DNA from: Sulfurospirillum cavolei
Lineage (GTDB): Bacteria > Campylobacterota > Campylobacteria > Campylobacterales > Sulfurospirillaceae
Assembly: GCF_001548055.1 (NCBI RefSeq)
Contig: NZ_AP014724.1
Location: 868,001-932,000, forward strand
Length of the DNA stretch: 64,000 bases
Direction of reading: 5' to 3'
This document shows positions 8,189 to 61,391 of this stretch, piece after piece. The notes beneath the pieces are model-generated. The model had not been told where the DNA came from. It saw only the letters and a program-made list of their open reading frames with translations, and did no database searches. The translations under genes were made by a program, and so were the position numbers. The stretch's first letter is position 1. Every line of letters begins with the position of its first letter.

Positions 8189-8566
8189 ATGAAACGAATC
8201 GTAGCGTTTTTACTGATTATGGTCACTTTAGGTGTTGCCGACGGGCATGAAAAACACCATTTGAGTAAAGATCTGTCTTCTTTGGAACTGAGTCTTGAAC
8301 AACAAAACGACGTTAAAGAGATTGTTAAAGCGTATCGACACGAGCTTAAAGCCTTTCGCGACGAAAAAGAGAGCGTCGAAAAACACAAAGAGAGATTGTT
8401 TCGTGAAAAGCAACTTGACGAGCGCGCTTTAGTTGCTTTGCAAACCTCTTTATCCCAAAAAGCATCGCAAATCGAAACGCGTTTTTTACTGCAAATGCAC
8501 GCTATCCTAACGCCCTCACAGCGTGAAAAATTCGCCCGTAATTTAGACGAGTGGGAGGTCGAATGA
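8189..8566 (+). CDS. Spy/CpxP-like periplasmic protein
   Basis: 125 residues with a signal peptide (MKRIVAFLLIMVTLGVADG) and a His-rich start (HEKHH). The rest is one long charged helical region, ending with an LTxxQ-type motif LTPSQREKF, the hallmark of Spy/CpxP proteins. In Cpx systems such proteins bind the sensor kinase and damp it or act as chaperones. It overlaps the response regulator by 4 bp, which supports a role as accessory sensor for the downstream kinase (inference). Confidence 0.75.
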   Translation: MKRIVAFLLIMVTLGVADGHEKHHLSKDLSSLELSLEQQNDVKEIVKAYRHELKAFRDEKESVEKHKERLFREKQLDERALVALQTSLSQKASQIETRFLLQMHAILTPSQREKFARNLDEWEVE

Positions 8567-9237
8567 GCGAGAAAATTTTACTCATCGAAGACGATTTGGA
8601 GATGCAATCTCTTATCAAAGAATATTTAACAAACTACGACTTCGAGGTTGTCGCGATCGATAAGCCTAAAGAAGCACTTGCGTACGTCAAAGCACATTCT
8701 CAAGAGATTCAACTGATCGTACTGGATTTGATGCTTCCTCAAATGGACGGTTTTGACGTGTGCAAAGCGTTACGGGCGTTGAATGAAGAGGTGTACATCA
8801 TCATCTCTTCCGCGCGCAATGAACTGAGCGATAAAATACTCGGATACGGACTCGGTGCGGATGATTATCTCGCCAAGCCGTATGAGCCTAGAGAGTTGGT
8901 GTTAAAAATCAATTCCGCCCTTCGAAGAACGCTCAAAAGTAAAAAGAAAATCGGCGATTTCGAGATTGATGAGGAAAAAATGCAAATCGCCTTAGAGGGT
9001 TACGCTTTGGATTTGACCAAAATCGAGTTTGATCTGTTGCACCTGCTTTTGTCTCACCCCGGAAAAGTTTTTTCGCGCGAAACGCTTTTCAACGCCATTA
9101 ACGGCATCGGATATAGTTCCAAAGACCGAACGGTCGATATGCACGTGAGCAATCTTCGCGCAAAACTCGGCGATGATTCTAAAAATCCCAAGTACATCAA
9201 ATCGGTGTGGGGCGTGGGTTACCAGTTGGTGCATTGA
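8563..9237 (+). CDS. OmpR-family response regulator (CpxR-like)
   Basis: 224 residues. ATG 8563 is chosen because GGGAGG lies 5 bp upstream and it overlaps the previous stop. The receiver domain has acidic residues DD at 10-11 and the phospho-acceptor Asp55 in LIVLDLMLPQMDG, then Lys in DDYLAKPYEPRELV. The C-terminal winged helix contains LTKIEFDLLHLL and DRTVDMHVSNLRAKLGDD. It should be a DNA-binding transcription factor for the haem operon or envelope stress genes. Confidence 0.9.
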   Translation: MSEKILLIEDDLEMQSLIKEYLTNYDFEVVAIDKPKEALAYVKAHSQEIQLIVLDLMLPQMDGFDVCKALRALNEEVYIIISSARNELSDKILGYGLGADDYLAKPYEPRELVLKINSALRRTLKSKKKIGDFEIDEEKMQIALEGYALDLTKIEFDLLHLLLSHPGKVFSRETLFNAINGIGYSSKDRTVDMHVSNLRAKLGDDSKNPKYIKSVWGVGYQLVH

Positions 9238-10457
9238 TGTCGATTTTTACGAAACTTTTACTGCTTTTTCTAGCCAGCCTCGCGGTTATGTTTTTTGTCG
9301 GTAAAGAGACGCATTCTTTAGCCAAAACCAATATCGAAGCATTACTCAGGGAAAAATACCTTCAAGCGAGCAACGAACTCTTTAAAGATTTGGCAAACAA
9401 CGATATGGTCGCTTTTCAAAAAAAGCTCGATGCTTGGGGTTTTGAAAGCGTTGCGTACGATATTTACGAACAAAAAGCACGTCGAATATACGAAGAACAA
9501 AGTAGTTTTGGCGAAATGAAAATCTATGAGGATGCCCAAGGTTACTATACGCTTTTGTTGCGCTATTTGGACGAACCTTTGCTCGTACGCGTTAAAAATC
9601 AAGAAGAGTATTTTGACCAACAAGCGCGCCTTGGCTATCTCATCGATGCGGACGTAGCACTGCTCGTCGTCATTTTCCTTCTGATCGCGAAGCTTTTACT
9701 GCCGTTAAAAACGATGACGCAAACCTTGAAGCGTTTTGGAGAAGGGGACTTACATGTCAGAATGTCGCAGCAAGGCTCCAACGAGCTTGGGCGGCTTGTG
9801 GAGAGTTTTAACGCAATGGCGTCCAATATCGAAAATCTGCTCAGTTCACGGGAACGCTTGCTCCGCGACATCGGGCACGAGCTACGAACACCCTTAGCCA
9901 AATCAAAATTGGCATTGGAAATGATGCCCTCAAATCCGCATCAAAAAATTCTCCAAAAAGCGATTTTTCAAATCGATCGACTTACGAACGAACTTTTGCA
10001 AATCGAGCGTTTGGGTGCAAATATGGCGGAATTTAAAACGGAGCGTTTTGAAGTCGAGACGCTTCTTTCCGAGGCACTGACCAAACTGATGATCGAGGAT
10101 GAATCGCTTTTGGAAATTCGTATCGCAGACTCTTTTACGATCGAGGGCGATTTGAATTATCTCGCAATTGCGTTAAAAAACCTTATCGACAACGCGCTCA
10201 AATATGCCGTGCATCTGCCTGTCGTGATCGATGTGGAAAACCGTACGATTGCCGTCAAAAACCAAGGCGAGGCTTTGAGTCGTCCTTTAGCGTATTATTG
10301 CGAGCCGTTTGTGAGAGGCAATGATGCGCGAGACGGTACGGGATTTGGGCTTGGGCTTAGCATCGTTCAGAAAATTCTCCAAAAACACGGCTTTTCATTA
10401 CGGCAGGATTACCGTGAAGGGTACTACACGTACGCAATCGTGTTTAAGCAATATTAA
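9237..10457 (+). CDS. Membrane sensor histidine kinase (CpxA-like)
   Basis: 406 residues starting at ATG 9237, overlapping the regulator stop (TGATG). Membrane helices lie at about 5-22 and 138-156 and enclose a periplasmic sensor of about 115 residues. HAMP follows. The H-box is RDIGHELRTPLAKSKLALEM with His214. The N-box (LKNLIDNALKYA) and G-box (GTGFGLGLSIVQK) are intact. It is cotranscribed with SHP/DHC and the Spy-like protein, so it may sense nitric oxide, oxygen or envelope stress (inference). Its 3' end overlaps the convergent diguanylate cyclase gene by 14 bp. Confidence 0.9.
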   Translation: MSIFTKLLLLFLASLAVMFFVGKETHSLAKTNIEALLREKYLQASNELFKDLANNDMVAFQKKLDAWGFESVAYDIYEQKARRIYEEQSSFGEMKIYEDAQGYYTLLLRYLDEPLLVRVKNQEEYFDQQARLGYLIDADVALLVVIFLLIAKLLLPLKTMTQTLKRFGEGDLHVRMSQQGSNELGRLVESFNAMASNIENLLSSRERLLRDIGHELRTPLAKSKLALEMMPSNPHQKILQKAIFQIDRLTNELLQIERLGANMAEFKTERFEVETLLSEALTKLMIEDESLLEIRIADSFTIEGDLNYLAIALKNLIDNALKYAVHLPVVIDVENRTIAVKNQGEALSRPLAYYCEPFVRGNDARDGTGFGLGLSIVQKILQKHGFSLRQDYREGYYTYAIVFKQY

Positions 10458-12378
10458 TTTTGTTTTTACCGCTTCTTTTGACCGCATACATCGCAATATC
10501 CGCATCTTTGAGAATGTCGTTGATCGTTTTGGAATTATCCCAAAAGAGCGTTCCTCCGATACTGGCGGAACATTCGTAGTCGCAATCGATTAAAGAAAAA
10601 GGTTTAGAAAATTCTTTGAGAACTTTGTGCGCGATACGGCGTAGTTGTTCTTTGGATGGATGTTCGTTCAATCCGAGTTGCGTAATCAAAACGACAAATT
10701 CGTCGCCGCCGAAACGTGCGACCGTATCGCAATGACGCAGTGTTTTTTGAAGACGTTTGGCGACTTTTTGGAGCAAAACGTCGCCGTATTCGTGGCCTAA
10801 AGTATCGTTGAGGTTTTTAAAATTATCCAAATCGATAAACAATAAGCCGCAGTATTCATGCGAGCGTGCACACATCGCCACGGTATAATTCAAGCGATCC
10901 AACAAAAGCTTACGGTTGGGAAGTTCGGTTAGGGAGTCGTAATAGGCTAAATGCTCGATCGTCTCTTTGGCTTTTTTCTCTTCGGTAATATTTCGAAAAA
11001 TCATCACCGAACCGACACTTCGGTTTTCCTGAATAAACGGCGTCAAATTGACATGTACGAAAATATGCTCTCCTTGCGCCGTTCGAAAGAGCTCTTCGCC
11101 GACATAGGAACGCTGATGCGCGATGCTCTCGATGATAGGGCAGGGTACTTGATCTAACGATTGGGGATGCACATGAATCAAACGGTGCGCGTTTTTCCCC
11201 AACATGTCGATTTCACGATACCCTAAGATCGTGAGTGTTGCGGCATTCACGAAGCGAATAGCTCCGTCGTTCGTGAGAAGAATAACGCCGTTGACGGTAG
11301 AGGTCACGATCGTTTCAAATTGAATTTTTTCAAGGACGATTCGTTTGCGCTGTACTAAAAGAAGATAAAGTCCAAACGTTAAAATCGTAAGCGTGATAAA
11401 GCCCAAAAGATAGATCGTAAGGTACTTGTTTTCAATGTCGACGAGTTCGGGTGCACAATCGTAAGTCGTGACGTATCCGCCGAGACGATTGTCGATCGCA
11501 AAAATAGGATAAAAATTGATGCTGTATCCTTGGTGCTCTAGCACTAGAGGAATCGAAAACGATTGATTGTGAGCAAGCAACTTTTGTACGCGCGGATTGT
11601 CGCGAAGCAGCGTATTGATGTGTATCAGTAAGGGCGATTTTAAGGCTTGATCGCTTAAAGACGAAATGGAAGGATTTTCGATCATAAAACGCTCGGAAAT
11701 CATCGACGGTACAAAATGGTCTCGGTGCTTTTCAAATACGACGTCCGTCGTCGTCTCCTTATTGAGTAGCAAAAGATAGTGTTGTGCGTTGAGAAGTTTC
11801 GAAAGTTCGGCAACGATGCGCTCGTAGGAAAGCGAAAGTTCTACGGTTCCTAAAAACGTCCCTTGATCGACGATCGGATAGACGTAACGAAATCCGGGAT
11901 AAATACGTCCGCCTTCAAAGCCGGAAACGAAGGTGCGCTCTTCATTGGCTTTTTTGATCGTCGCCCGAACGTCGATCAAGAGGTCGCCGTTTTCATTGGG
12001 TTGGTGAAACCGTAAAAAACTTTCGCCTTTTTCGGTGTGAAAGTGCAGTTGGCGAATACCGTGAGTGACGAGTTCTTGCTGATAAAGCGGGTACAAATAA
12101 CGGTACAAATTTCCGCGTAAGAGTGCTTTTTCCTCTTCAGATGCATGTAAAGATCGGCGTAAAATTTCGATGACGCGCGGTTGCATAATGACGTATTTAA
12201 AATAATTTTCAATCGAGATGCGATACATCTGCGTGACCGCTTTATACGAAGACTCCAAACTTTGATTTTTACCGTCTAGAATAATCTGAATTTCCCGCTC
12301 TTTCACGGCGTAACTATTAAGAAAAAAGAGAAGATACAACGTGCATAAAAGAGCAAGGGCGGGTACTATCTGCTTCAT
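10444..12378 (-). CDS. Membrane diguanylate cyclase, Cache-PAS-GGDEF
   Basis: 644 residues from ATG 12378, which overlaps the TGA of the PhnD-like gene by one base; an upstream in-frame start would only extend into that gene. Membrane helices are at about 4-22 and 320-342, framing a large periplasmic Cache-like sensor (IRQLHFHTEKGESFLR). A PAS domain covers about 352-465. The GGDEF domain holds FGGDEF at 556-561 with an RxxD inhibitory site (RHCD) five residues before it, so it should synthesise cyclic-di-GMP and be product-inhibited. The upstream periplasmic protein probably feeds its sensor. Confidence 0.9.
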   Translation of the reverse strand: MKQIVPALALLCTLYLLFFLNSYAVKEREIQIILDGKNQSLESSYKAVTQMYRISIENYFKYVIMQPRVIEILRRSLHASEEEKALLRGNLYRYLYPLYQQELVTHGIRQLHFHTEKGESFLRFHQPNENGDLLIDVRATIKKANEERTFVSGFEGGRIYPGFRYVYPIVDQGTFLGTVELSLSYERIVAELSKLLNAQHYLLLLNKETTTDVVFEKHRDHFVPSMISERFMIENPSISSLSDQALKSPLLIHINTLLRDNPRVQKLLAHNQSFSIPLVLEHQGYSINFYPIFAIDNRLGGYVTTYDCAPELVDIENKYLTIYLLGFITLTILTFGLYLLLVQRKRIVLEKIQFETIVTSTVNGVILLTNDGAIRFVNAATLTILGYREIDMLGKNAHRLIHVHPQSLDQVPCPIIESIAHQRSYVGEELFRTAQGEHIFVHVNLTPFIQENRSVGSVMIFRNITEEKKAKETIEHLAYYDSLTELPNRKLLLDRLNYTVAMCARSHEYCGLLFIDLDNFKNLNDTLGHEYGDVLLQKVAKRLQKTLRHCDTVARFGGDEFVVLITQLGLNEHPSKEQLRRIAHKVLKEFSKPFSLIDCDYECSASIGGTLFWDNSKTINDILKDADIAMYAVKRSGKNKINIA

Positions 12379-13208
12379 CAAAAATTCCCTTCTTGAGGGA
12401 TGCTTTCCATGTCGAAAAACAATTGCATATGACGGTACGTATCGGGGTGCACGGCTTGAACACCCCAAGAGATCTCTTTTCCCCACGAAGCATACTCTTT
12501 GGCGGGAGCATTTAAAAGGCGCGTGCGAATCGCTTCGATCTGTTCGGACGAGAGCGTTTTGGTATTTAAAATCAGCGCAAAGCTCGGAACGATAGGCGAA
12601 TAAGCAATGATCTCCAAGCCAAGCGATCGGTACGACTCGGCGATACTCTCTTTCATCCCGCCCAAATGAAACTCGCCGCGAAGAACGGCAAGAGCGACTT
12701 CATCGTGCTTATGAATATAGCGATAGTGCATCGTAGAAAGCGGTGCGTTCGCGTATGTTTGCACCAACGGAGCGGTTGAAAAATAGCCGCAGGTTGAAAG
12801 CGGCTCGGTGAGGGCAACTTTAAGCGTTTGGGGGTGTTCAAGTTCTAACATGTCAGGCGTAAATTTGACTAAAACGCAACGATAGCCGTTTTTGCCCTTA
12901 GCGTCGTTAAAGGTTACGACGGGGAGGGCGGAAGCATCTTGTTTCATCAAAGCAAGCGTAGGCAAAGGTCCCATATACGCTATATCGATCTTATCGTCGA
13001 TAAAATCCGCAATCAATTTTTGGTAAGAGGGTTCAAACCGAAACTCTACGGATCGATTGAGGTCGCGTTCGAGATAGCGAAACATCGGGGCAAAATCTTC
13101 TACGATACCGGTGTTGTTTTTATAGGGCAAAGAGGCAAAAATAAGTGATCTCGCTTCCAAAGGAAGAGCGCATATCGATATCAAACCGATGTAATAAATC
13201 CATCGCAT
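12378..13208 (-). CDS. PhnD-like periplasmic binding protein paired with a diguanylate cyclase
   Basis: 276 residues from ATG 13208, where a signal peptide starts (MRWIYYIGLISICALPLEA). LEARSLIFASLPYKN and the RYLERDLN, IDIAYMGPLPTLALM pattern match the phosphate/phosphonate (PhnD-type) substrate-binding fold. The usual STSGY ligand loop is altered to LSTCGYF. There is no ABC permease or ATPase nearby. Instead it is translationally coupled to the diguanylate cyclase, which points to a sensing rather than a transport role. Ligand unknown. Confidence 0.8.
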   Translation of the reverse strand: MRWIYYIGLISICALPLEARSLIFASLPYKNNTGIVEDFAPMFRYLERDLNRSVEFRFEPSYQKLIADFIDDKIDIAYMGPLPTLALMKQDASALPVVTFNDAKGKNGYRCVLVKFTPDMLELEHPQTLKVALTEPLSTCGYFSTAPLVQTYANAPLSTMHYRYIHKHDEVALAVLRGEFHLGGMKESIAESYRSLGLEIIAYSPIVPSFALILNTKTLSSEQIEAIRTRLLNAPAKEYASWGKEISWGVQAVHPDTYRHMQLFFDMESIPQEGNF

Positions 13209-17798: not shown

Positions 17799-18614
17799 TT
17801 ACTCCAAATGCAGTAAACGGTCGTATAAAAACAGCGGCTTTTCTTCAAATCCCGCGATACTGCTTTGCGTGTTGGTGGAAGAGTGAAACGCTAAAAGAAG
17901 TGTTTTGATCTTCGCTACAAGGGCTGGGTCTAGATGCCCTGAGGCGATCATCGCATCGTAGGGGATCTCTTCGGACGTGCTTAAAATACGAATCTTACGT
18001 TGCGTCTCTTCGGGCAGCGCACGGTAAATACCATCATACACTGCTCCCGCGTCAATCGACTTTTCCAAAAGGGCATCGATGATCTTGGAGTGTTTTTTCA
18101 ACATGTAGATTTTCCCTAACTCTTTACTCGGGTCAATGCCGTTTTGGCGCATCGTAAAACACGGGTAAAGATAGCCCGAAGTGGAGTCAACGTCGGTAAA
18201 GCCGAAGCTTTTTCCCTTAAGATCGGCAAGTGTTTTAACGCTACTCTCTTTTGGCGTGAGGATCAAGCTACGGTAGGTGCTGCGTTTGAGCGTTTGGGTG
18301 TCTGCAAACTGAATCGTTCCTAGATAATCGGCATTGACCTCTTTTTGACGCAACATCGCAAACAGTTTGGGTGAAATAGACGCCATGTCCACACTGCCTT
18401 GCTCAATCAGCGTGATAAGCTGGTTATAATCTTTGGAAACAACAAAAACGATCTCTTTATCGAGAGCTTTTTCAAGGTACGCGATCAATTCAGCGTGAAT
18501 GGCTTGAAGTTCAGGCGTCGTTTTGTAAGGGTTAACGCCTAAGACGAGTTGGTCTTTAGCGCACAAACAGGTACAGCATAACAGCACGATGCTAATGAGG
18601 TTTTTAATCTTCAT
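17799..18614 (-). CDS. PhnD-like periplasmic binding protein, second of the 18-21 kb module
   Basis: 271 residues from ATG 18614, which gives a clean signal peptide (MKIKNLISIVLLCCTCLCA). DVDSTSGYLYPCFTMRQNGID is the PhnD-family ligand loop, and SVDMASISPKLFAML and GAVYDGIYRAL fit the same fold. It overlaps the diguanylate cyclase gene by 11 bp. No transporter permease or ATPase is adjacent. It is likely a periplasmic sensor partner of the cyclase (inference). It is clearly related to, but not identical with, the binding protein at 20060-20920. Confidence 0.82.
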   Translation of the reverse strand: MKIKNLISIVLLCCTCLCAKDQLVLGVNPYKTTPELQAIHAELIAYLEKALDKEIVFVVSKDYNQLITLIEQGSVDMASISPKLFAMLRQKEVNADYLGTIQFADTQTLKRSTYRSLILTPKESSVKTLADLKGKSFGFTDVDSTSGYLYPCFTMRQNGIDPSKELGKIYMLKKHSKIIDALLEKSIDAGAVYDGIYRALPEETQRKIRILSTSEEIPYDAMIASGHLDPALVAKIKTLLLAFHSSTNTQSSIAGFEEKPLFLYDRLLHLE

Positions 18615-20076
18615 GTTCAACCCTATCCCTTCCGTTATTTTTAGCGCGGTACAGCGCAGTATCTGCACGTTTTAAGATCGCATTGGGTGTGTCGCCTGCG
18701 TGGTAGGTTGCAACCCCTAAACTCATGGAAACCGTACGGTCGTAGCGCTCAAAGACGTGCTCTTTGACGTTGGTACGCATTTGCTCAGCAATCACGCAAG
18801 CGCCCACAAGATCGGTTTGTGGCAGAATCAGTAAAAACTCTTCGCCACCCCAACGCCCTAGCATATCGCTGGTACGAACGCTTTGGCGCATCAGTTGCGC
18901 TGTGACTTCTAGGACATGATCGCCCACCTCGTGCCCGCACGTATCGTTGATCGTTTTAAAACGGTCTATGTCGATCATCAGCACAGAGAAAAAGCTTCCT
19001 CGCTCACTCTCTTTAATCTTCTGCTCCAGACACTCTTCGAGTTTGCGTCGGTTCCAAAGAGAAGTAAGCTGGTCGGTGGAGCTTAGATGTTCCAGCGCAT
19101 CTTGTGTTTCGGCGACTTTTTGGCTCATATTGAAAAGTGCTTCAGCGATTTTTTTCACTTCAGGCGTCGAGCGCTCTTTGGTAGTATGTTTGATCGTCGT
19201 GCCGACTTCTTTGATGTCCAAGCGGTCTTCGTAAAAATCGATCAGCACTTGAGAGAGTGATTTGTACTCTTTGAGGTGTTTTAAGAGGGTAAAATGCAGC
19301 GCCAATACAAATAAAATCAACGCTATGCCAATGCTCACGAAAAAATTGGTACGCGCTTCTTTCAGGGCTTGAAGTTCATCTTCGGATGCCAGCCCAATGG
19401 TAAAGCTTGCCTCTTTGATACTGCCTGCTTGAAGCATGACATGTAAGGACGATGCATTGCTCAGCGTTTCATGTTTGATCGCAGAGAGCGTTTGGTTTTC
19501 GGAGTGGTAGGCGATGTTCATCGTTGTGCCTTGCACCAAGGAAGAGAGCAAATCATCATCGATGATGAGCGCAACGCTGATCAGACCAATGGGTCTTTCC
19601 CCATACTGTTTAATGCGTTTGGCGAAGATGAGGCACTCTTTGTCGTCGACTTTATCGATGCCTAAAAAGGTGTCATTTTGAAGTGCTTGTTGTACGTAAA
19701 AGCGTTTGGACGCATCGTCTCCAAATCGAAACTCGGACTCACCACGGCTGATGATCGTTCCATCCAGATCAATGAAATGGATTTTATGTGCCGAAGATGA
19801 GAGGAAGAGTTTGCTCCAGTTGTAGAGCATGTCGGTGTCGTTACTGATGATGCCTGTGATGACCTCTTGCGAGTTGATGAGAATTTGTGCCGTTTTTTGA
19901 AGCTGATCCAACTTTTCTTCAAAACGTTTTTGAATCATCTCCGATTGGATCAGGTTTTTTTGGTCAAACGCCGCTTTTTGCGTCACGTAAAGAGACTGGA
20001 TTTGATAAATTCCGAAACTAAAGATAGCTCCCAACTGAACAAGGGTGAGAAAGAGGATTTTATTGTACAGTTTCAT
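18604..20076 (-). CDS. Membrane diguanylate cyclase, Cache-HAMP-like-GGDEF
   Basis: 490 residues. Membrane helices at about 6-24 and 245-264 frame a periplasmic Cache sensor (HFIDLDGTIISRGESEFRFG). A linker follows, then the GGDEF domain with RWGGEEF at about 408-414 and an RxxD inhibitory site (RTSD) five residues before it. It should make cyclic-di-GMP. It overlaps PhnD-like genes on both sides, by 17 bp upstream and 11 bp downstream, so the three proteins are made together. A TGACATGTAA site lies inside it at 19437. Confidence 0.9.
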   Translation of the reverse strand: MKLYNKILFLTLVQLGAIFSFGIYQIQSLYVTQKAAFDQKNLIQSEMIQKRFEEKLDQLQKTAQILINSQEVITGIISNDTDMLYNWSKLFLSSSAHKIHFIDLDGTIISRGESEFRFGDDASKRFYVQQALQNDTFLGIDKVDDKECLIFAKRIKQYGERPIGLISVALIIDDDLLSSLVQGTTMNIAYHSENQTLSAIKHETLSNASSLHVMLQAGSIKEASFTIGLASEDELQALKEARTNFFVSIGIALILFVLALHFTLLKHLKEYKSLSQVLIDFYEDRLDIKEVGTTIKHTTKERSTPEVKKIAEALFNMSQKVAETQDALEHLSSTDQLTSLWNRRKLEECLEQKIKESERGSFFSVLMIDIDRFKTINDTCGHEVGDHVLEVTAQLMRQSVRTSDMLGRWGGEEFLLILPQTDLVGACVIAEQMRTNVKEHVFERYDRTVSMSLGVATYHAGDTPNAILKRADTALYRAKNNGRDRVEHED

Positions 20077-20920
20077 AGATGCGTGCTTTTAAAATGCGCT
20101 TAAACGGTTCGTAAAAGCGTTCATCTTTGCGGACAAATCCCGCGCTTTCCCAGCCTAAAAACTCTTCAAAGGCTTTGTTGATTGCAGAGTCGATGGGAAT
20201 TTGCTCCAGTAAGATTGCGATGCGTTTGCTCTCATCTTGCGAGACATGGGCTGATGCGACGATGGCATCCAGTGGGATCGGCTCTGAGGCGGCTAGAATG
20301 GTGAATTGATCGCCGTACTTTTCTAGCGCATTGTAGTACGTTCCATCGGACATCGCTCCCACGTCGATGGAGTGGTTGACGAGCGCTTCGACCACTTTGT
20401 CATGTTTTTTGAGAAAAAAGACTTTTTGAAAAAAGGTGTAGGGGTTGATGTGGCGCTCTTCTAACATCAGCATCGGGTAGGCATACCCTGAGGTCGAATC
20501 TTTGTCGGTAAAAGCAAAATGCTTGCCTTTTGCCTCTTCGAGTGCGTTTACATGTAAGCTTTTCAGCGTGACGATAAAGGACTGATAATACGGCGTAATC
20601 TGCCCATTTTTGGAGTGTTCCAAATAGGTTACGAGGTAGCGCACCGAGGGATTTTTCTCTTTTAAAAGCACGAAGCTTTTGGTATTGACCCACGCAAAAT
20701 CGACACTTTTTTCTTCGATGCGTGAAAAGAGCTCATCGTAATCTTTGGTCACGACGATTTTAAACGTGTCATGGGTGTTTGCGCTCAAATACTCCATCAA
20801 CGGAGCAAAAGCGCGCATGATTTTTTCGGGGTTGTTAGAGGGATAGGTCGCAAAAGTATACTCTTTGGCTTGCAAAGAAGAGAAAAAAAGAAGACCGATA
20901 AAAATGCATTTAAAAAGCAT
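20060..20920 (-). CDS. PhnD-like periplasmic binding protein, first of the 18-21 kb module
   Basis: 286 residues with signal peptide MLFKCIFIGLLFFSSLQA. YTFATYPSNNPEKIMRAFAP, SVDFAWVNTKSFVLL and the ligand loop DKDSTSGYAYPMLML place it in the PhnD family. DVGAMSDGTYYNALEKYG matches the second lobe. It heads a three-gene unit with the diguanylate cyclase and a second PhnD-like protein. A perfect TTACATGTAA lies inside at 20548. Ligand unknown; phosphate, phosphite or another small oxyanion or ester are candidates only by family. Confidence 0.82.
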   Translation of the reverse strand: MLFKCIFIGLLFFSSLQAKEYTFATYPSNNPEKIMRAFAPLMEYLSANTHDTFKIVVTKDYDELFSRIEEKSVDFAWVNTKSFVLLKEKNPSVRYLVTYLEHSKNGQITPYYQSFIVTLKSLHVNALEEAKGKHFAFTDKDSTSGYAYPMLMLEERHINPYTFFQKVFFLKKHDKVVEALVNHSIDVGAMSDGTYYNALEKYGDQFTILAASEPIPLDAIVASAHVSQDESKRIAILLEQIPIDSAINKAFEEFLGWESAGFVRKDERFYEPFKRILKARIYETVQ

Positions 20921-21049: not shown

Positions 21050-21083
21050 AAAGCGTTTAAGGCAAAACGACCTTAAACGCTTT
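21050..21083 (-). terminator. Rho-independent terminator of psrABC
   Basis: Perfect 13-bp arms 21050-21062 and 21071-21083 with an 8-nt loop lie 53 bp beyond the psrC stop. In the psr direction the stem is followed by a U-rich tract (TTTCTTTTAAAAC). A TTACATGTCA site starts at 21082 and overlaps the stem foot. The remainder of the 215-bp gap shows no gene. Confidence 0.75.
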
Positions 21084-21135: not shown

Positions 21136-22350
21136 TTAAGCCTCTTCTTGATAGTTTTGAAAATACGCGTCGTCTTCATTCGGGTCTAGAAAGAAGAAAT
21201 TCTCGCCGACGTAATACAACGCTAAACAGATGCCGATCCCTCCAAACGCAATCGCCCATTCCGTCATCGTCGGCATATACTCTACCCATGAAGGTGCGAG
21301 TTGATACTCTTTGAGCTTCATCGTTTGCATCGGATAGACAAGCGTGTCGTGTACAAGATCGTAGCGCATAAAAAAGATGCCTATCATGCCCGAAACAGAT
21401 GCGTAGATCATCGCTTTAAGTGCTTTGGCTTTGCTGTATAAAATGATAACGAAAGGAATCGCCATACCCAAAAGCACTTCGCCGACCCAGAAGTTAAACG
21501 AGCCTAAGATGTGCAACGCCGTTTCGGCACGCTCGGGAAAGTTACCGTAAATCGCCGTTAAAAAACGCCAAAATTCAAAAAAGACGAGAATCGCGATGAG
21601 CAATCCCAAAAGCCGCCCTAAGTGCATTAAAAACTTTTGCATCTCGTCGTTAAAAACCATTTTATATTTGTAGCCGTACATGAGAAACAAAAGATAACAC
21701 CCCGTAATCATCGCCGATAAAATAAAATAAACGGGATAAAAAACGCCGTTTGCCATAGGTCTTCCGATCAAAAAGCCAAAGACGGCCCCCAAGTTGGAGT
21801 GTGCCGCAATGCCGACCAACAAGCCCCCAAGACCGAAAATACGCGACCATTTGTGATCGTCGCGCGAAAGAAAGATAAACTCTAAAATAATCAAAAAGAG
21901 ATACACGGAGTACAAGACGCCCATACCCCAAATCGCGGAAGAAAAACCGGGCGAGAGGGTATTGTAGATGACCATACGCACGGGATGACCGATCTCTAAG
22001 CCGATCACCGCAAAGCCCGAAACAATCGTAATGATCGCACCGAAAATGGCGCGTTTACCGATAAATTCAAAGCTTTTGATATGAAAAACATGCCCTAACG
22101 AGGAGATGATGCAAAGTCCCGTCGATGAAACGACGAAAAAGATATACATCGCGATCAGCAATCCCCAAGGATGCTCTCTCGTAACGCCGTAAGCGTGGTG
22201 TCCGTGCATCAAATAGTGCACGAATCCTCCCGCAAACGCCGCCAAAAGAAGCAGGGTCGTCAGTGCCATAACGAGATTAAACGGGGTTCTCTCAAAATCG
22301 AAAACGGATCGTAACGTAATGCTTTTATGCGGAATCAAATGATCTAACAT
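21136..22350 (-). CDS. psrC: Polysulfide/thiosulfate reductase membrane subunit PsrC (NrfD family)
   Basis: 404 residues, about eight to ten membrane helices. NrfD features are seen in GFAVIGLEIGHPVRMVIYN and FNFWVGEVLLGMAIPFVIIL. It is the quinol-oxidising membrane anchor that delivers electrons through PsrB to the catalytic PsrA. It follows psrB by 9 bp. The order A-B-C equals that of Wolinella psrABC. Whether polysulfide, thiosulfate or tetrathionate is the true substrate cannot be decided from sequence alone. Confidence 0.85.
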   Translation of the reverse strand: MLDHLIPHKSITLRSVFDFERTPFNLVMALTTLLLLAAFAGGFVHYLMHGHHAYGVTREHPWGLLIAMYIFFVVSSTGLCIISSLGHVFHIKSFEFIGKRAIFGAIITIVSGFAVIGLEIGHPVRMVIYNTLSPGFSSAIWGMGVLYSVYLFLIILEFIFLSRDDHKWSRIFGLGGLLVGIAAHSNLGAVFGFLIGRPMANGVFYPVYFILSAMITGCYLLFLMYGYKYKMVFNDEMQKFLMHLGRLLGLLIAILVFFEFWRFLTAIYGNFPERAETALHILGSFNFWVGEVLLGMAIPFVIILYSKAKALKAMIYASVSGMIGIFFMRYDLVHDTLVYPMQTMKLKEYQLAPSWVEYMPTMTEWAIAFGGIGICLALYYVGENFFFLDPNEDDAYFQNYQEEA

Positions 22351-22359
22351 GCGTGTTCC

Positions 22360-22923
22360 TTATTTGATGTAAAAGAGTCTCGGTTCCGTACCGATACCGG
22401 CTTTAAGCGTAAAGTGCTCTTTGGTGCGAAGAATGTGCGAAACTTCGCTGTTGGGATCTTCCATATCGCCGAAGATGCGTACTTTGGTCGGGCAAGTCGC
22501 TTGGCATGCCGTGGTTTTGAGCCCTCGCGCCAGACGCGTATCGCTGCAAAAATTGCACTTATCGACGCTCATCGTGCGCGTATCGACGTAGCGTGCGTCA
22601 TACGGACATGCGACCATACAGTAACTACACAAAATACACTTTTGCGCGTCGATTTGAACGACGCCGTTTTTGTCGTAGTAGGTTGCATGCGTCGGGCAAA
22701 CCTCTTCACACGGCGCATTGGCGCAATGTTGGCATTGGCTTGGGTAAAACGTGCTGGATGGAATGCTCAAAAACGGGTATTTTCCTTCGATCTCATACGT
22801 ACCGACCCAAATGCGATGCGCTTTAGCTCCCAGTTCGATTCCGTTTTCTTCCTTACAGGCGACTTCGCACGCTTTACAGTTAATGCAGTTTTTATAGTTT
22901 AAGATCATTGCGTACTTTGCCAT
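22360..22923 (-). CDS. psrB: Polysulfide/thiosulfate reductase iron-sulfur subunit PsrB
   Basis: 187 residues. Cys clusters occur as CINCKACEVAC at 13-23, CQHCANAPCEEVCP, CILCSYCMVACPYD and CNFC, giving the four [4Fe-4S] sites usual for DMSO-reductase family electron-transfer subunits. No signal peptide is present; it would be exported attached to the Tat substrate PsrA. It lies 2 bp after psrA and 9 bp before psrC. Confidence 0.92.
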   Translation of the reverse strand: MAKYAMILNYKNCINCKACEVACKEENGIELGAKAHRIWVGTYEIEGKYPFLSIPSSTFYPSQCQHCANAPCEEVCPTHATYYDKNGVVQIDAQKCILCSYCMVACPYDARYVDTRTMSVDKCNFCSDTRLARGLKTTACQATCPTKVRIFGDMEDPNSEVSHILRTKEHFTLKAGIGTEPRLFYIK

Positions 22924-22925
22924 GA

Positions 22926-25319
22926 TTACACCTTTTTAATTTCGACGTTGGTTTCGTGCATGATCGAAGAGCCGTATACCGGTTCGATAATATCTTCGAT
23001 GAGGGCGTTATCGTTGGCACCTTGTCGGTAAGCAAGCGTTAAAGCTGAGCTTTCGCTTCCGAATCCGTGCACGAAAAAGACGACTTCGTGTCCGATTTTT
23101 TCCGTCGGATACGCTTTAAGGCGCGTTTTGCCGACTTTACCGGAGACTTCGACCGTATCGCCGAAACGAATTTTCATCTTTTTGGCGACGCTTGCATTGA
23201 TCCAAAGATAGTTTTCGTCCATCAAGTCCCGCAACATGGCGTTATTGGCGGTTCCGCTTTGCGTAAATTGTGCGTGCCGTCCCGTAATCAGTCTAAATTT
23301 TCCCTCAGGTACGCTAAAGGCAAACGCTTCGTGCCATGTCGGCATTGCGTCTACGCCTTGTTCCGCCATCGTTGAGAGTTTGCATTCGATTTTTCCCGAA
23401 GCGGTTTTCGGTTTGCCGTTTTGAACGCTATAGGCTTTTTCGTTTTCGGGGTAGTATTGAAATTCATTGGCGTTGATGGCTTTAAAGCGACGTTCCATCT
23501 CGGGATAAAAAACCCCTTTCGTGCACAAGGTTTCATAGGCACCCGCGTATTTCGCGACCGCCGCTTGATTGGCTTCTTCTTGCGAATGTTCAAACGCTTT
23601 AGAGATGTCAAAATCCGCATAAACTTCTTCTTCCGAGCTCTCTTCGATAGCGGCTTGGACGTCTTCGTCGTATTTTTTCGTCACGTCAAACAGCGGCTTG
23701 CTTATCATGTGACTCAGATCGTTTAAAATTTCGCGGACCGGTTTGCTTTCAAACATCGGATCGACGACTTTGTTTCTTTGAGCGATCGAAGGTTCCGCTC
23801 CCGCGAAAGAGACCACGGGGTCGGTACGCTCCAAATAGGTACATTCGGGCAAAATCACGTCGGCATACATCGCCGTATCGCTCGGCATGGTATCAATGAC
23901 GACGACCAAGTCCATTTTTTTAAGCATTTCGATGCTTTTAGCACTATTGGGCATATTTAAAACGGGATTGTGTTTGTAGACGAAGGCACCTCTAACGGGA
24001 TAGGGCATTTTTCCTTCCAAAAAGCGGTTTCGCCACCCGATCCACGATCCGCCTCCGGAGATAATCGCGCAATCTTCATAACCGCTTTCGCCTTTTTTGA
24101 CGTTCTTTTTACGCGCGATCGCACGCGATTTTGCTTGGGCGTAAATCGGGCTTGAGACTTCGTGTTCGGCTAAAGGAAGATTTTTTCCGAAAATCAGCCC
24201 GCCTTTCGTATCGATGCCGCCGCTTAAAGCCTGAAACAGAGCCATCGCACGTCTGAGCTGAAAATCGCTTTGCGAAAACGTACTGCGCCTTCCGGGATAA
24301 TAGATCGCTTTGGGCGCATAGAGCATAAATTCGCGTGCGATTTCCCGAATCTGTTTGGCACTGATTCCCGTAATGTTTTCCGCCCATTCGGGGGTGTACT
24401 CATGGCTTAAAATATGCTCTTCATACGCTTCAAAGTCCGAAAAATAGGTTTCGACGTATGCAAGGTTGTACATTTTTTCCTGAATGACGACGTAGGTTAA
24501 CGCCAAAACGAAAGCCAAGTCGGTTCCGGGTTTGATCGGTAGCCACATGTCGGCTTTGGCGGCGGTATTGGTAAAACGAGGGTCGATATAGACCAATTTA
24601 GCACCTCGGCCTTGCGTTTTTTTGAAAAGCTCCGTCGAGTCGGGCGTCACGATCGCCTCCGCACGATTGGCACCCGCCATAATCACGTACTGGGCGTTTT
24701 GCAAATCGGCAAACGGATAAGCACCTAAAGTAACACCGTAAGCCGAAACAACGGTTTGAAGGCATAAAGAAGCGTGGTTGAGCCAGTTGGAAGAGCCGAA
24801 AAGCTGGTAAAACGTTTTGAAGGTATGTTCCGCCATACCCTCTCCGGCACAAAATAAAAAGGAAGAGCGGTTATCTTTTTCTTCGTCTAAAATCGTGACG
24901 ATCTTTTCTTGAAGATAGGTATTGACTTCAGCCCATGACGCACGTCTAAATTTGCCTGAGCCTTTTTCTCCGCTGCGAATCAAAGGATATTTGAGCCTGT
25001 CCGGATCGTACAGGGCTTGAATGCCGGCATTACCGCGCGGGCAGAGCATATTTTTCGACTTTGGAAACAAAGGGTTTGGGTCGAGTTTGGTCACAACGCC
25101 TTTTTCAACTCGTGCGAGGAGGGCACATTTGTTGACGCATACTTCGCATAAAGTCGGTATTTCGATACCGCCGGTGGAGGTTTTGGTAATGCCGTAAGCG
25201 TTAGCGGGCATGTGCGTATTGTCCTGCGGCTTTGTACCGCCAAAAGTGCTACTTGTCGCAACAATGCTCAAAGCAACGCTTCCTTGTAAAAACCGTCTAC
25301 GAGATATTTCTACTTCCAA
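22926..25319 (-). CDS. psrA: Molybdopterin catalytic subunit, polysulfide/thiosulfate reductase type PsrA
   Basis: 797 residues. The start is TTG at 25319, supported by AAGGAG 4 bp upstream. A Tat signal (SRRRFLQGS) opens the protein. The [4Fe-4S] site is CEVCVNKC plus the later C of MLCPRGNAG. LNHASLCLQT supplies the likely Mo-ligating Cys at about 186. Dinucleotide-binding MGD segments follow (FRLITGRHAQ near residue 665). It acts in the periplasm and reduces a sulfur compound with quinol electrons via PsrBC. It heads the operon; the promoter must lie in the 25320-25700 region. Confidence 0.87.
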   Translation of the reverse strand: MEVEISRRRFLQGSVALSIVATSSTFGGTKPQDNTHMPANAYGITKTSTGGIEIPTLCEVCVNKCALLARVEKGVVTKLDPNPLFPKSKNMLCPRGNAGIQALYDPDRLKYPLIRSGEKGSGKFRRASWAEVNTYLQEKIVTILDEEKDNRSSFLFCAGEGMAEHTFKTFYQLFGSSNWLNHASLCLQTVVSAYGVTLGAYPFADLQNAQYVIMAGANRAEAIVTPDSTELFKKTQGRGAKLVYIDPRFTNTAAKADMWLPIKPGTDLAFVLALTYVVIQEKMYNLAYVETYFSDFEAYEEHILSHEYTPEWAENITGISAKQIREIAREFMLYAPKAIYYPGRRSTFSQSDFQLRRAMALFQALSGGIDTKGGLIFGKNLPLAEHEVSSPIYAQAKSRAIARKKNVKKGESGYEDCAIISGGGSWIGWRNRFLEGKMPYPVRGAFVYKHNPVLNMPNSAKSIEMLKKMDLVVVIDTMPSDTAMYADVILPECTYLERTDPVVSFAGAEPSIAQRNKVVDPMFESKPVREILNDLSHMISKPLFDVTKKYDEDVQAAIEESSEEEVYADFDISKAFEHSQEEANQAAVAKYAGAYETLCTKGVFYPEMERRFKAINANEFQYYPENEKAYSVQNGKPKTASGKIECKLSTMAEQGVDAMPTWHEAFAFSVPEGKFRLITGRHAQFTQSGTANNAMLRDLMDENYLWINASVAKKMKIRFGDTVEVSGKVGKTRLKAYPTEKIGHEVVFFVHGFGSESSALTLAYRQGANDNALIEDIIEPVYGSSIMHETNVEIKKV

Positions 25320-52435: not shown

Positions 52436-52463
52436 TACAATAGCGCAAATGCGAGGGGTAACC

Positions 52464-55082
52464 GTGATACATACGATCGTTCAACGACTCAATCAACCTA
52501 AAATCGTTTTGGTATCGGTTTTTATAAGTACGTTTGTTTTACTTTCTTTGGTCGTGTACCGCTTGCATACCTTTGAACTCGATACCGAACGAAAACAAGT
52601 TGAAGCCATTGCAACAAACTACGGATATGATATTCGGTCGATGTTGGAAAGAGCACTTTCATCGACGTATATGCTTCAAGCCCTGCTTAATGAAAACAAC
52701 CATACCCGTATTGAAAATTTTGAGAGTGTCGCCAACGATATTTTGCCTTTTTATCCCGGCGTTATCGAGCTAGCGATCGCCCCTAAAGGTATCATTCAAC
52801 AAGTCGCGCCCTTGAGGGGTAACGAAAAAGCGTTAGGGCTTAACCTCTTTGAAACGGCTTCACAGCAAACCGAAGCGCTCTTGGCCAAAGAGACGGGAAG
52901 TTTAACGCTGGCAGGTCCCTTTAATCTGGTTCAAGGCGGCGTCGGACTTGCCGGACGGTTGCCGATTTTTGAAACTCAAGACCAAAAAGAGACGTTTTGG
53001 GGGTTTGCCGTGGTGATTATTCGTATCTCGGAGATTTTCGAGACGGTTAAAGCGGCCTCGTTAGGCGGAGAAACGATGGCGTACGAAGTCTGGCGGATTG
53101 AGCCGCAAAGCCGCGAAAAACAAGTCATCTATGCTTCCGACGCTTCGAGCTTGACGCATCCGATCGAACACGGTTTCGACGTTCCTAACGGTCGATGGAT
53201 GATTCACATGTCGCCGCATCGAGGCTGGGGCGACGCTTCGGCGTTGATGCTGCGTGAGTTGATCGTGTTGGCATTTTCACTTTTATCGGCGTATATGGCA
53301 AAGTTTTTCGTCGATTTGCGTATCGCCAAAAAAGCTTTGGAAACGAGAATTATTCAAACCCACAACGAAAAAGAGATTCTTGAACAGCGTTTATCGACGC
53401 TTTTAGATGCCGTTCCCGATTTGGTTTTTTTAAAAAATCCCGAGGGCGTTTACCTGTTTTGCAATCGAGCTTTCGAAAAATTGTACGGCGTTAAAGAAGC
53501 CGATATGATGGGAAAAACGGATTATGATTTTGTCGATAAACAAGCGGCGGATTTTTTTAGAACCAACGATTTGATCGCGATCGATGCTCAAACATCGGTG
53601 ACTAACGAAGAAGAACTTTGCTTTAAAGAAGACGGCTACAACGGGTTGTTCGAGACGATCAAAACGCCGATGTACGATACCAAAGGCGAGCTTATCGGCG
53701 TTTTGGGAATCGCTCGGGACATTACGGCGCGTAGGGAAAACGAAGTCAAATTGGAGCGTTTAGAATACTTTGATCCTTTAACGTCCCTTCCCAATAAAGT
53801 GCAATTGCATTTACGCCTCGAACACGATCTTTTGATGATGGAAAAGAAACACGAGCAATTGGCGGTTTTATTTATCGACTTCGATCATTTTAAAAACATT
53901 AACGATACGTTAGGACATGCATTCGGCGACGAATTGCTCATCAAGGTCTCCAAGCGGCTTAAAAGCCTCATTCGTCCCGTCGATACGCTTTCAAGACAAG
54001 GCGGGGACGAGTTTGTGATGGTCTTGCCCAGCGTGCGCGTCGACGATGCGGTGCATACGGCAAAACGCGTGTTGCAGACGATTGAGCAGCCGATCGTTTT
54101 GCAAGAACACGAACTCGTGATTACCGCTTCGATCGGTATCGCGTTGTATCCTAACGACGGAAAAGACGTTGAGAGCTTGTTTAAAAGTGCCGATGCCGCG
54201 ATGTATTTAGCAAAAAAAGACGGCAGGAACAATTACCGCTTTTTTACCTCCGAAATTCAAAGCCGTTCGGCACGCCTTTTAAGCCTTGAAAATGCCTTGC
54301 GTTACGCGCACACGCGAGGGGAATTAAGCCTTCATTATCAGCCGCAAATTTCGTTGCAAGAGGGGACGATCGTCGGCGTTGAAGCTCTGTTGCGATGGAC
54401 GCATCCTGAACTTGGGACGATTTCTCCCGCCGAATTTATTCCGATTGCCGAAGAGAGCGGGCAAATTTTGTTGATCGGCGAGTGGGTGATGCGAAGTGCG
54501 GCAATGCGGATGAAACAGTGGATCGAGGCGGGATTTTCTCCGATTAGCGTGGCGGTAAACCTCTCGGCGGTACAGTTTCACCATACGCACCTGTCGCATT
54601 TGGTCGGAACGATTTTGGACGAGGTAAAGCTTCCGGCGGAGTATTTGGAGTTGGAACTGACCGAAAGCGTCGCGGCGCAAAACCCCGAACATGCCATTGC
54701 AACGATGAATGCGCTTGTCGCGCAAGGCATACGGCTTTCGATCGACGATTTCGGTACGGGATATTCGTCGTTAAGTTATTTGAAGCGTTTTAAAGTCTAT
54801 AAACTCAAAATCGATCAATCGTTTATTCGCGATATTCACAGCGATCCTGAAGATAAAGAGATTGTTAAGACGATTATCGCCTTAGGAAAAAGCTTGGGGT
54901 TGAAGGTTATTGCCGAGGGCGTTGAAACGCAAGAGCAGCTTGATTTTCTCAAAGAACACGGGTGCGACGAAGCTCAAGGGTACTACTTTAGTAAACCCTT
55001 AAGCGTAGAAGATCTCGAAGCGTTACGCTTGCATCCCGAAATTATAGAACGTAAGAACAACAATAATCCGCAAACGTCGTGA
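52464..55082 (+). CDS. CHASE-PAS-GGDEF-EAL cyclic-di-GMP protein
   Basis: 872 residues from GTG 52464, preferred to ATG 52449 because GAGGGG lies 5 bp before the GTG. Membrane helices near residues 14-35 and 265-285 frame a CHASE sensor. PAS follows (about 300-420). GGDEF has RQGGDEF with RPVD five residues before it, so both active and inhibitory sites are intact. EAL has GVEALLRW and later DDFGTGYSSL, also intact. It could make or degrade cyclic-di-GMP depending on signal. Its 3' end overlaps ppnP by 41 bp. Confidence 0.93.
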   Translation: MIHTIVQRLNQPKIVLVSVFISTFVLLSLVVYRLHTFELDTERKQVEAIATNYGYDIRSMLERALSSTYMLQALLNENNHTRIENFESVANDILPFYPGVIELAIAPKGIIQQVAPLRGNEKALGLNLFETASQQTEALLAKETGSLTLAGPFNLVQGGVGLAGRLPIFETQDQKETFWGFAVVIIRISEIFETVKAASLGGETMAYEVWRIEPQSREKQVIYASDASSLTHPIEHGFDVPNGRWMIHMSPHRGWGDASALMLRELIVLAFSLLSAYMAKFFVDLRIAKKALETRIIQTHNEKEILEQRLSTLLDAVPDLVFLKNPEGVYLFCNRAFEKLYGVKEADMMGKTDYDFVDKQAADFFRTNDLIAIDAQTSVTNEEELCFKEDGYNGLFETIKTPMYDTKGELIGVLGIARDITARRENEVKLERLEYFDPLTSLPNKVQLHLRLEHDLLMMEKKHEQLAVLFIDFDHFKNINDTLGHAFGDELLIKVSKRLKSLIRPVDTLSRQGGDEFVMVLPSVRVDDAVHTAKRVLQTIEQPIVLQEHELVITASIGIALYPNDGKDVESLFKSADAAMYLAKKDGRNNYRFFTSEIQSRSARLLSLENALRYAHTRGELSLHYQPQISLQEGTIVGVEALLRWTHPELGTISPAEFIPIAEESGQILLIGEWVMRSAAMRMKQWIEAGFSPISVAVNLSAVQFHHTHLSHLVGTILDEVKLPAEYLELELTESVAAQNPEHAIATMNALVAQGIRLSIDDFGTGYSSLSYLKRFKVYKLKIDQSFIRDIHSDPEDKEIVKTIIALGKSLGLKVIAEGVETQEQLDFLKEHGCDEAQGYYFSKPLSVEDLEALRLHPEIIERKNNNNPQTS

Positions 55083-59702: not shown

Positions 59703-61391
59703 ATGTCCTTAAGCAAGAAAATTAAATATTTTAAACAAATCGCTATTTTGCTGACGATTTGCTGGACGTTTTTAACCTCTCTTTTTGTCGTATACCAATT
59801 TATCAACGAAGAGAAGCATATCGAGCAAAGCTCTCTGGAAAAAATAAAAGGCGTTGCCGAGCAGTCGATCGCTTTTGTGTATTGGGCGTATGAACAAAAA
59901 GCCAAAGCGTTAAGCGACGAGCAAAAGTACAGCATTCGCAATAATTTTTCCCTACGCGACCTTCTGGCCGTTTTGGCACGCCATAGCGATATGGATCTTT
60001 CCATTAACTCGATTTACAAAGATATTCATGCGATGAACGTTCCTGCTAGCGTTAAACAATCGCTTTTAAGCGTCAAAGAGACGAAACAAGATACGTACAA
60101 TATTTTTTACAAAAACGAACGCAAATACCTTTTTTACGCCGTACCGATGTTGGCAAACCACTCGTGCATCTCCTGCCACGTTCACGACGACGAGAAGATC
60201 GGTGCGTTGTTGGGTTTTACGACGATTTCGATGCAAGTTCCCACGTTTCGGGAAGCTAATGCGCAAAGTTACTATTTTTTAATCGGTATGTATTTGGGAA
60301 CGTGGTGCTTAGGACTCTTTGCGATTTGGTGGATTCACGCCAAAGGACGCAATTATTTGAACGAAAAAACGAAACTCTACGAAGAGAGCATGTACGCGCT
60401 TATCGATATGGTCGAGAAACGCGACAGTTATACCGCCGGTCACAGCCAAAGGGTTGCCGAGTATGCCAAGCTTCTCACGCTTGAGCTCGGCTACTCCCAC
60501 GATGAAGCCGATTTTATCTATAAAGCGGGCATGTTGCACGACATCGGAAAGATCGAGATTCCAGACTCGATCCTCCTCAAACCCGATACGCTCTCTTCGA
60601 TGGAATATTCACTGATTCAACGCCATTCGACCGCCAGCTACGAGTTGTTGTTGCGTGAACCTTTTAGCGCATTGGCAACCATCGTTTTGCACCATCACGA
60701 ACGTTACGACGGACGAGGGTATCCGAGCGGATTGAAAGGGGAGCAAATTCCGATTTTCTCGCAAATCATTACCGTGGCGGATGCCTTTGACGCAATGACG
60801 ACGAATCGAGCGTATCGTAAATGCTTACGTCGCGAAGAGGCACTTTTTCTTTTGGAAGAAGAGAGCGGCAAACAATTCAACCCTTCCATCGTTGCCGCTG
60901 CCAAAAAAGTGTTTAAAAACGTAAAATTGCCTGAAAATACGACGCAAATGCCTAAAGATTTATTGGAAGAGATGCGCTTTTCATACTACTTCCGCGATCA
61001 ACTGACCGGTTTTTACAATATCAATTACCTCAAATTTCTCTTCGCGCACGCAGGGGACTGTTCCATGAAATTGTTATGCATCGACCATCTCAACTGTACG
61101 CATTTTGCCGAGTACAATAAACGTTACGGTTGGAAAAAAGGCGATCTTTTTTTAAGGCGTATCGCGCAGTGTATCCATGAAATTTATCCCGAAGCGATGA
61201 TCGTTCGAGCCTACAGCGACAATTTTTTGGTAATCCATACGCAAGAGCATACGCATATGCGCTACGAAGCGTTAGACGCCATGTTGGAAGAGTACGCTTT
61301 AAGCATGGAATACCAACATCTGGATATTGACGTGAATGAGCCTTTAAGCTTGGAAATCTTGGAAGATAAACTTTTGCGTTTGGAGAATTAG
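59703..61391 (+). CDS. HD-GYP cyclic-di-GMP phosphodiesterase with haem-binding periplasmic sensor and degenerate GGDEF
   Basis: 562 residues. Membrane helices at about 12-31 and 190-212 frame a DUF3365/Tll0287-like sensor. It contains CISCH at 155-159, a c-type haem motif. The HD-GYP domain has GHSQRVAEYAKLL, MLHDIGKIEIPD with HD at 279-280 and GRGYPSGL with GYP at 339-341, all intact. The last 130 residues look like GGDEF without the motif (RAYSDNFLVI replaces RxGGDEFxxL) and probably have no cyclase activity. It should degrade cyclic-di-GMP in response to redox state or a gas. Confidence 0.88.
   Translation: MSLSKKIKYFKQIAILLTICWTFLTSLFVVYQFINEEKHIEQSSLEKIKGVAEQSIAFVYWAYEQKAKALSDEQKYSIRNNFSLRDLLAVLARHSDMDLSINSIYKDIHAMNVPASVKQSLLSVKETKQDTYNIFYKNERKYLFYAVPMLANHSCISCHVHDDEKIGALLGFTTISMQVPTFREANAQSYYFLIGMYLGTWCLGLFAIWWIHAKGRNYLNEKTKLYEESMYALIDMVEKRDSYTAGHSQRVAEYAKLLTLELGYSHDEADFIYKAGMLHDIGKIEIPDSILLKPDTLSSMEYSLIQRHSTASYELLLREPFSALATIVLHHHERYDGRGYPSGLKGEQIPIFSQIITVADAFDAMTTNRAYRKCLRREEALFLLEEESGKQFNPSIVAAAKKVFKNVKLPENTTQMPKDLLEEMRFSYYFRDQLTGFYNINYLKFLFAHAGDCSMKLLCIDHLNCTHFAEYNKRYGWKKGDLFLRRIAQCIHEIYPEAMIVRAYSDNFLVIHTQEHTHMRYEALDAMLEEYALSMEYQHLDIDVNEPLSLEILEDKLLRLEN

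Follow-up and report, generated by a model that had tools for sequence, protein, structure and literature searches.

PhnD-family binding proteins paired with diguanylate cyclases in Sulfurospirillum cavolei and other Campylobacterota probably sense an external compound

The closest described relatives of the system analysed here are AioX, ArrX and ArxX, PhnD-family periplasmic sensors encoded beside their membrane receptors AioS, ArrS and ArxS, whose output is a histidine kinase with a response regulator. A related logic is that of the norspermidine system NspS-MbaA of Vibrio cholerae and Sinorhizobium meliloti, in which a periplasmic binding protein drives a membrane GGDEF receptor (PMC9993111) and controls cyclic di-GMP (c-di-GMP) independently of transport. 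Here, we analysed a 64,000-nucleotide stretch (the window) of the Sulfurospirillum cavolei genome, positions 868001-932000 of a single 2.70-Mb chromosome, in which a minus-strand module at 17799-20920 places two PhnD-type genes around a gene for a membrane diguanylate cyclase (PhnD1-DGC1-PhnD2). By analogy, the module is most likely the NspS-MbaA logic carried out by proteins of the AioX/ArrX type. PhnD-family proteins paired with cyclases probably detect a compound outside the cell instead of serving in transport, given that the same overlapping pairing with cyclases recurs across the phylum.

The module shares with AioX/ArrX/ArxX the Tyr, Tyr, Ser, Ser and His of the binding pocket, and ArrX is its closest solved structure; unlike them, it ends in a GGDEF cyclase, its PhnDs are without the arsenic-binding Cys, two of them flank one receptor, and there is no conserved cognate molybdoenzyme. 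The binding protein NspS is a polyamine binder of the PotD type, and its receptor MbaA combines GGDEF-EAL with HAMP, whereas the S. cavolei proteins belong to PF12974 and both cyclases paired with them in the window (DGC1 and DGC2, below) are without EAL. The tetrathionate and thiosulfate kinases TtrS and ThsS also have a PhnD-like sensory domain, but join it to the kinase in one polypeptide, in contrast to the separate genes and cyclase output of the module. The original prediction had likened the module to LuxP-LuxQ, which stands as an analogy only: a binding protein acts through a membrane receptor there too, but the binding protein is of a different family and the output is a hybrid kinase, and ArrX/AioX (for the sensory PhnD family) and NspS-MbaA (for the GGDEF receptor) fit better.

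Pfam supports all three genes of the module, which are read in the order PhnD1-DGC1-PhnD2 from 20920 to 17799. PhnD1 (20060..20920, minus strand, 286 aa; PF12974, E 1e-50) has a predicted signal peptide ending ...SLQA/KE and an AlphaFold2 model with a pLDDT (predicted local distance difference test) of 90.7. PhnD2 (17799..18614, minus strand, 271 aa) is 33% identical to PhnD1; its Pfam match (Phosphonate-bd, E 8e-52) was scored on the open reading frame (ORF) 17799-18668. On the basis of the signal peptide and the junction sequence, we moved its start from GTG 18668 to ATG 18614, because the latter gives a normal signal peptide and the former a longer, unlikely N-terminus. Export of both proteins to the periplasm is predicted. 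Read from the sequence on the minus strand, the overlap of PhnD1 with DGC1 is 17 nt long (20060..20076) and, with the ATG at 18614, that of DGC1 with PhnD2 is 11 nt long (18604..18614). A promoter scan scored no better than shuffled sequences.

DGC1 (18604..20076, minus strand, 490 aa; GGDEF, E 3e-47) consists of a transmembrane segment, a dCache-like periplasmic domain, a second transmembrane segment and the GGDEF domain. Its GGEEF catalytic motif (residues 410-414; 18835..18849) is invariant in 18 homologues, as are R401 and D404 of the RTSD inhibitory site (I-site, RxxD; residues 401-404; 18865..18876), which lies five residues upstream. The cyclase is 64-89% identical to its orthologues within the genus, the upper value being that of Sulfurospirillum sp. 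UBA4058, the nearest named relative. Its sensor domain scores 23.6 bits against dCache_3, just under the Pfam gathering cut-off of 25.7, 9 of the 18 homologues match dCache_3 at E <= 0.01, and the strand/helix order of the predicted structure (pLDDT 86) fits dCache. Foldseek with the whole of DGC1 gives no class for the sensor domain, as GGDEF matches dominate. Thus the original description of two PhnD-type proteins flanking and overlapping a membrane GGEEF cyclase with intact active and inhibitory sites is borne out, as is that of a second pair elsewhere in the window.

In this second locus (10444-13208), PhnD3 (12378..13208, minus strand, 276 aa; PF12974, E 2e-36) is followed by DGC2 (10444..12378, minus strand, 644 aa from ATG 12378; GGDEF, E 1e-44), a dCache_3-PAS-GGDEF cyclase; the junction TGATG is a 1-nt overlap. 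DGC2 matches dCache_3 with 48 bits (cut-off 25.7), and a GGDEF motif and an RHCD I-site can be read in its sequence. Genome-wide, there are six PF12974 matches, three of them in the window. A fourth strong PhnD gene, at 1410504, adjoins a HAMP-GGDEF-EAL-CZB protein, so that all four strong PhnD genes adjoin a GGDEF gene; of the two weaker matches, one lies inside an SsuA-like aliphatic-sulfonate binding protein and one stands beside a TRAP permease. With 51 GGDEF domains in the genome, ~4% of genes would be expected to have a GGDEF neighbour by chance, yet 3 of 3 independent strong-PhnD loci have one, for which we estimate a chance probability of ~5e-5.

We searched PF12974 in 397 Campylobacterota genomes and retrieved the neighbourhoods of nearly all of the ~150 best-scoring matches, which gave 157 distinct PhnD genes; the survey is confined to the neighbourhoods of these stronger matches. 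Neighbours were classed with hidden Markov models built from window proteins, except that motifs defined the ATP-binding cassette (ABC) class; a GGDEF gene within 150 bp on the same strand was counted as adjoining. The PhnD-GGDEF neighbourhood, whose count the original prediction had proposed as a check, is conserved: 55 of the 157 genes adjoin a GGDEF gene, and these are spread over 32 genomes from 13 genera and 4 families. A histidine kinase adjoins 35, another 35 share one ORF with signalling domains, 28 are in ABC operons and 4 are in none of these classes. Among stand-alone PhnD genes outside ABC operons, GGDEF or kinase genes are adjacent in 90/94. Of the 97 cases with a neighbouring receptor gene, 76 have PhnD on its upstream side, and the most frequent PhnD/receptor junctions are overlaps of 4 nt and 1 nt, besides start-ambiguous overlaps in orthologues of the module. 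The mirror image, in which two GGDEF genes flank a single PhnD gene, was seen in another genome of the genus (G239; L147, 6586-10916).

Pfam analysis of ten proteins (nine fusions) found an N-terminal PhnD joined to GGDEF, GGDEF-EAL or an HD-GYP-type HD domain; PhnD fusions with GGDEF-EAL and HD-GYP-type HD were noted among loci L120-L235 (e.g., L194, L196, L212). Among bacteria sampled from beyond the phylum, PhnD genes beside kinases are common, PhnD beside GGDEF occurs twice, both times in one Rhodocyclales genome (L248, L252), and a Nitrospirae protein (L258) fuses PhnD to a chemoreceptor signalling domain. We also selected 76 GGDEF loci, most of them from other phyla, by the similarity of their catalytic domains, and none has a PhnD gene. 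Judging from the fusions, including that with a chemoreceptor, PhnD seems to be a general-purpose sensor module. In genomes of Thermodesulfobacterium and Nitrospirota type, tandem PhnD domains were also observed within one protein of ~550-580 aa, with kinase and regulator genes after it (L264, L274, L275).

In a rapidly built maximum-likelihood tree with all 157 PhnD domains, ABC and signalling PhnDs are separated by 2 changes, about ten swaps between kinase and cyclase partners are needed, and the fused PhnDs group in a single clade. Sister clades with GGDEF partners throughout (23 rows, 99%) hold PhnD1 and PhnD2. These clades also hold both PhnDs of a genome from another family (G298), which has the same PhnD-cyclase-PhnD order (L144), so the duplication that gave rise to PhnD1 and PhnD2 is probably old.

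The closest PDB sequence to PhnD1 is ArrX (E 3e-16), and ArrX also gives the best Foldseek matches of its AlphaFold2 model (E 5e-25). In AioX, the ligand is contacted by Tyr88, Cys106, Tyr131, Ser161, Ser163, His192 and Asp210 (PMC5908839). PhnD1 and PhnD2 retain equivalents of all of these except Cys106, the arsenic-binding residue, which is Asn in PhnD1, Ser in PhnD2 and Gly in PhnD3. Arsenic, considered as a ligand of PhnD1-3, is therefore unlikely. The pocket suggests instead a phosphorus or sulfur oxyanion, or a similar anion, for PhnD1 and PhnD2; a sulfur oxyanion is kept as a candidate since PhnD-like kinase sensor domains for thiosulfate and tetrathionate are known (PMC5408782). PhnD3 has Cys in place of Ser163 (STCG) and Glu in place of Asp210. 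Each cysteine follows the tree: Cys106 marks exactly one kinase-linked clade of 15 genes and occurs only there, and Cys163 marks exactly one clade of 19 genes, PhnD3 and 18 relatives, which suggests that this clade senses a distinct, possibly thiol-reactive ligand. A member of the Cys106 clade from the same genus (L173) has its PhnD-kinase-regulator genes beside an ArrA-like reductase gene (1069 bits vs. a curated 1600), and serves as a positive control for sensory PhnDs within the genus.

The explanation we favour, and consider likely, is that PhnD1 and PhnD2 are periplasmic sensor co-receptors of the AioX/ArrX type that gate DGC1 through its dCache-like domain and thereby alter c-di-GMP. An exported PhnD would close on a small anion and dock on the dCache-like domain, and docking would alter the cyclase dimer and change the c-di-GMP level; PhnD3 and DGC2 would make up a second, independent receptor of like design. 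This explanation is built on the domains, the active and inhibitory sites, the co-directional overlaps, the oxyanion-type pocket, the conserved pairing, the lack of recognisable PhnC or PhnE and the separation of lineages, all read from the sequence. The role in extracytoplasmic ligand sensing for c-di-GMP that was originally proposed for the binding proteins is supported by the conserved neighbourhood, the missing PhnC/PhnE and the separate lineages. It is tentatively possible, and rather doubtful, that the two diverged PhnDs bind a single dCache cyclase, either in competition or together, and that c-di-GMP would follow the ratio of two chemically similar anions (e.g., a phosphorus and a sulfur oxyanion); a PhnD1/PhnD2-type pair (33% identical) is conserved in two families.

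Several points weigh against co-receptor gating. We infer the contact, the ligand response and the c-di-GMP output of the PhnD-cyclase pair, along with the sign of the effect and the division of roles between PhnD1 and PhnD2. PhnD1 is missing from the locus in two relatives that retain the cyclase and PhnD2 (G056 and G206; L145, L146), and is thus dispensable there. The sensors of partner cyclases vary, with dCache_3 in only 9 of 30 and CHASE8, LapD_MoxY_N and others also among them, which leaves no single docking partner and means that docking surfaces probably differ. Finally, mirror-tree correlation of PhnD1 is the same with the cyclase sensor (r 0.88) as with the GGDEF domain (0.88); this correlation is not contact-specific and does not tell contact from linkage.

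The variety of partner sensors would also suit a looser association, in which the cyclase senses its own ligand through dCache while the co-expressed PhnDs buffer or scavenge a related periplasmic compound. dCache domains usually bind ligands themselves. We nevertheless consider this unlikely: the fusions place PhnD inside the receptor itself, overlap coupling recurs with PhnD usually upstream, and in the sister system signal transduction through a kinase begins with ArrX/AioX (PMC5908839). Still less probable, and in our judgement very improbable, is that the PhnDs supply an ABC permease from another part of the genome with phosphonate, phosphite or phosphate and have a cyclase neighbour by chance. 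The profile TIGR01098 (phosphate/phosphite/phosphonate ABC binding protein) does name PhnD1 and PhnD2 as ABC binding proteins, at 136-138 bits and above its cut-off, and the genome has 57 PhnC-like ATPase matches. However, none of these reaches the family cut-off, the best PhnC match in the whole genome being 221 bits vs. 266 and the best PhnE permease match 81 bits vs. 217. The only PhnC-like ATPase match inside the window, at ~44972, is away from the module, in line with the original observation that no ABC permease or ATPase is near. All three PhnDs also fall below the PhnD equivalog TIGR03431 (cut-off 261 bits), with 119 bits for PhnD1, 118 for PhnD2 and 76 for PhnD3. Service to a distant ABC transporter, named at the outset as a finding that would overturn the sensory role, is thus unsupported; signalling and ABC PhnDs separate on the tree, and nearly all stand-alone PhnD genes outside ABC operons adjoin a GGDEF or kinase gene.

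A special case of co-receptor gating, differing in ligand and role, would make the PhnDs dedicated sensors for the enzyme encoded next door. A psrABC/phsABC-like molybdoenzyme operon (21136-25319, minus strand) ends 215 bp directly upstream of the module on the same strand; its catalytic subunit is PhsA-like at 475 bits, under the family cut-off of 694. In this view, the PhnDs would sense the substrate of this enzyme, be it polysulfide, thiosulfate or another oxyanion, and signal its presence via c-di-GMP, as ArrX does for arsenate in its own system. For AioX, ArrX and ArxX alike, the ligand is what the cognate molybdoenzyme uses as substrate (PMC5908839), and the thiosulfate and tetrathionate kinases noted above are PhnD-like as well. 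Yet the operon and the module are neighbours in just two loci, the window and L007; the operon is absent nearby in the other 16 compared loci that have a homologue of the module. In addition, a 14-bp perfect hairpin followed by CTTTT (21050..21083, minus strand; -22.3 kcal/mol for a 91-nt stretch, z -2.4) is its probable terminator and would separate the two transcripts. PhnD1-DGC1-PhnD2 is therefore probably transcribed on its own. On these two grounds, coupling to the operon was rejected as the main explanation, the operon is not counted as part of the system, and a dedicated sensor of this kind seems quite unlikely.

Two further observations concern signalling genes of the window. Convergent with the PhnD3-DGC2 locus are genes for an ArsS-family histidine kinase (9207-10457, above the NCBIfam cut-off) and an OmpR-type regulator (8551-9237). 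Other genes related to c-di-GMP encode a CHASE-PAS-GGDEF-EAL protein (52449-55082) and an HD-GYP-type protein (59703-61391).

A literature search of open-licence papers for PhnD with GGDEF or diguanylate cyclase returned nothing relevant on the pairing, and a 2022 review of c-di-GMP sensing names SBP_bac_3 as the sole member of the whole periplasmic-binding-protein clan whose place in c-di-GMP networks had been studied (PMC8846402). The PhnD-family branch of binding-protein-gated c-di-GMP receptors is therefore apparently undescribed in the literature searched. With 28 of 157 genes in ABC operons, most "phosphonate-binding" annotations in the surveyed Campylobacterota probably denote sensors, not transport proteins. 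A two-input co-receptor, if true, would exemplify a widespread family of sensory PhnDs for which kinases, cyclases and chemoreceptors are interchangeable partners. Together these loci offer a set of receptors open to testing, and finding their ligands would tie an outside anion to the control of biofilm or motility in sulfur- and arsenic-respiring bacteria.

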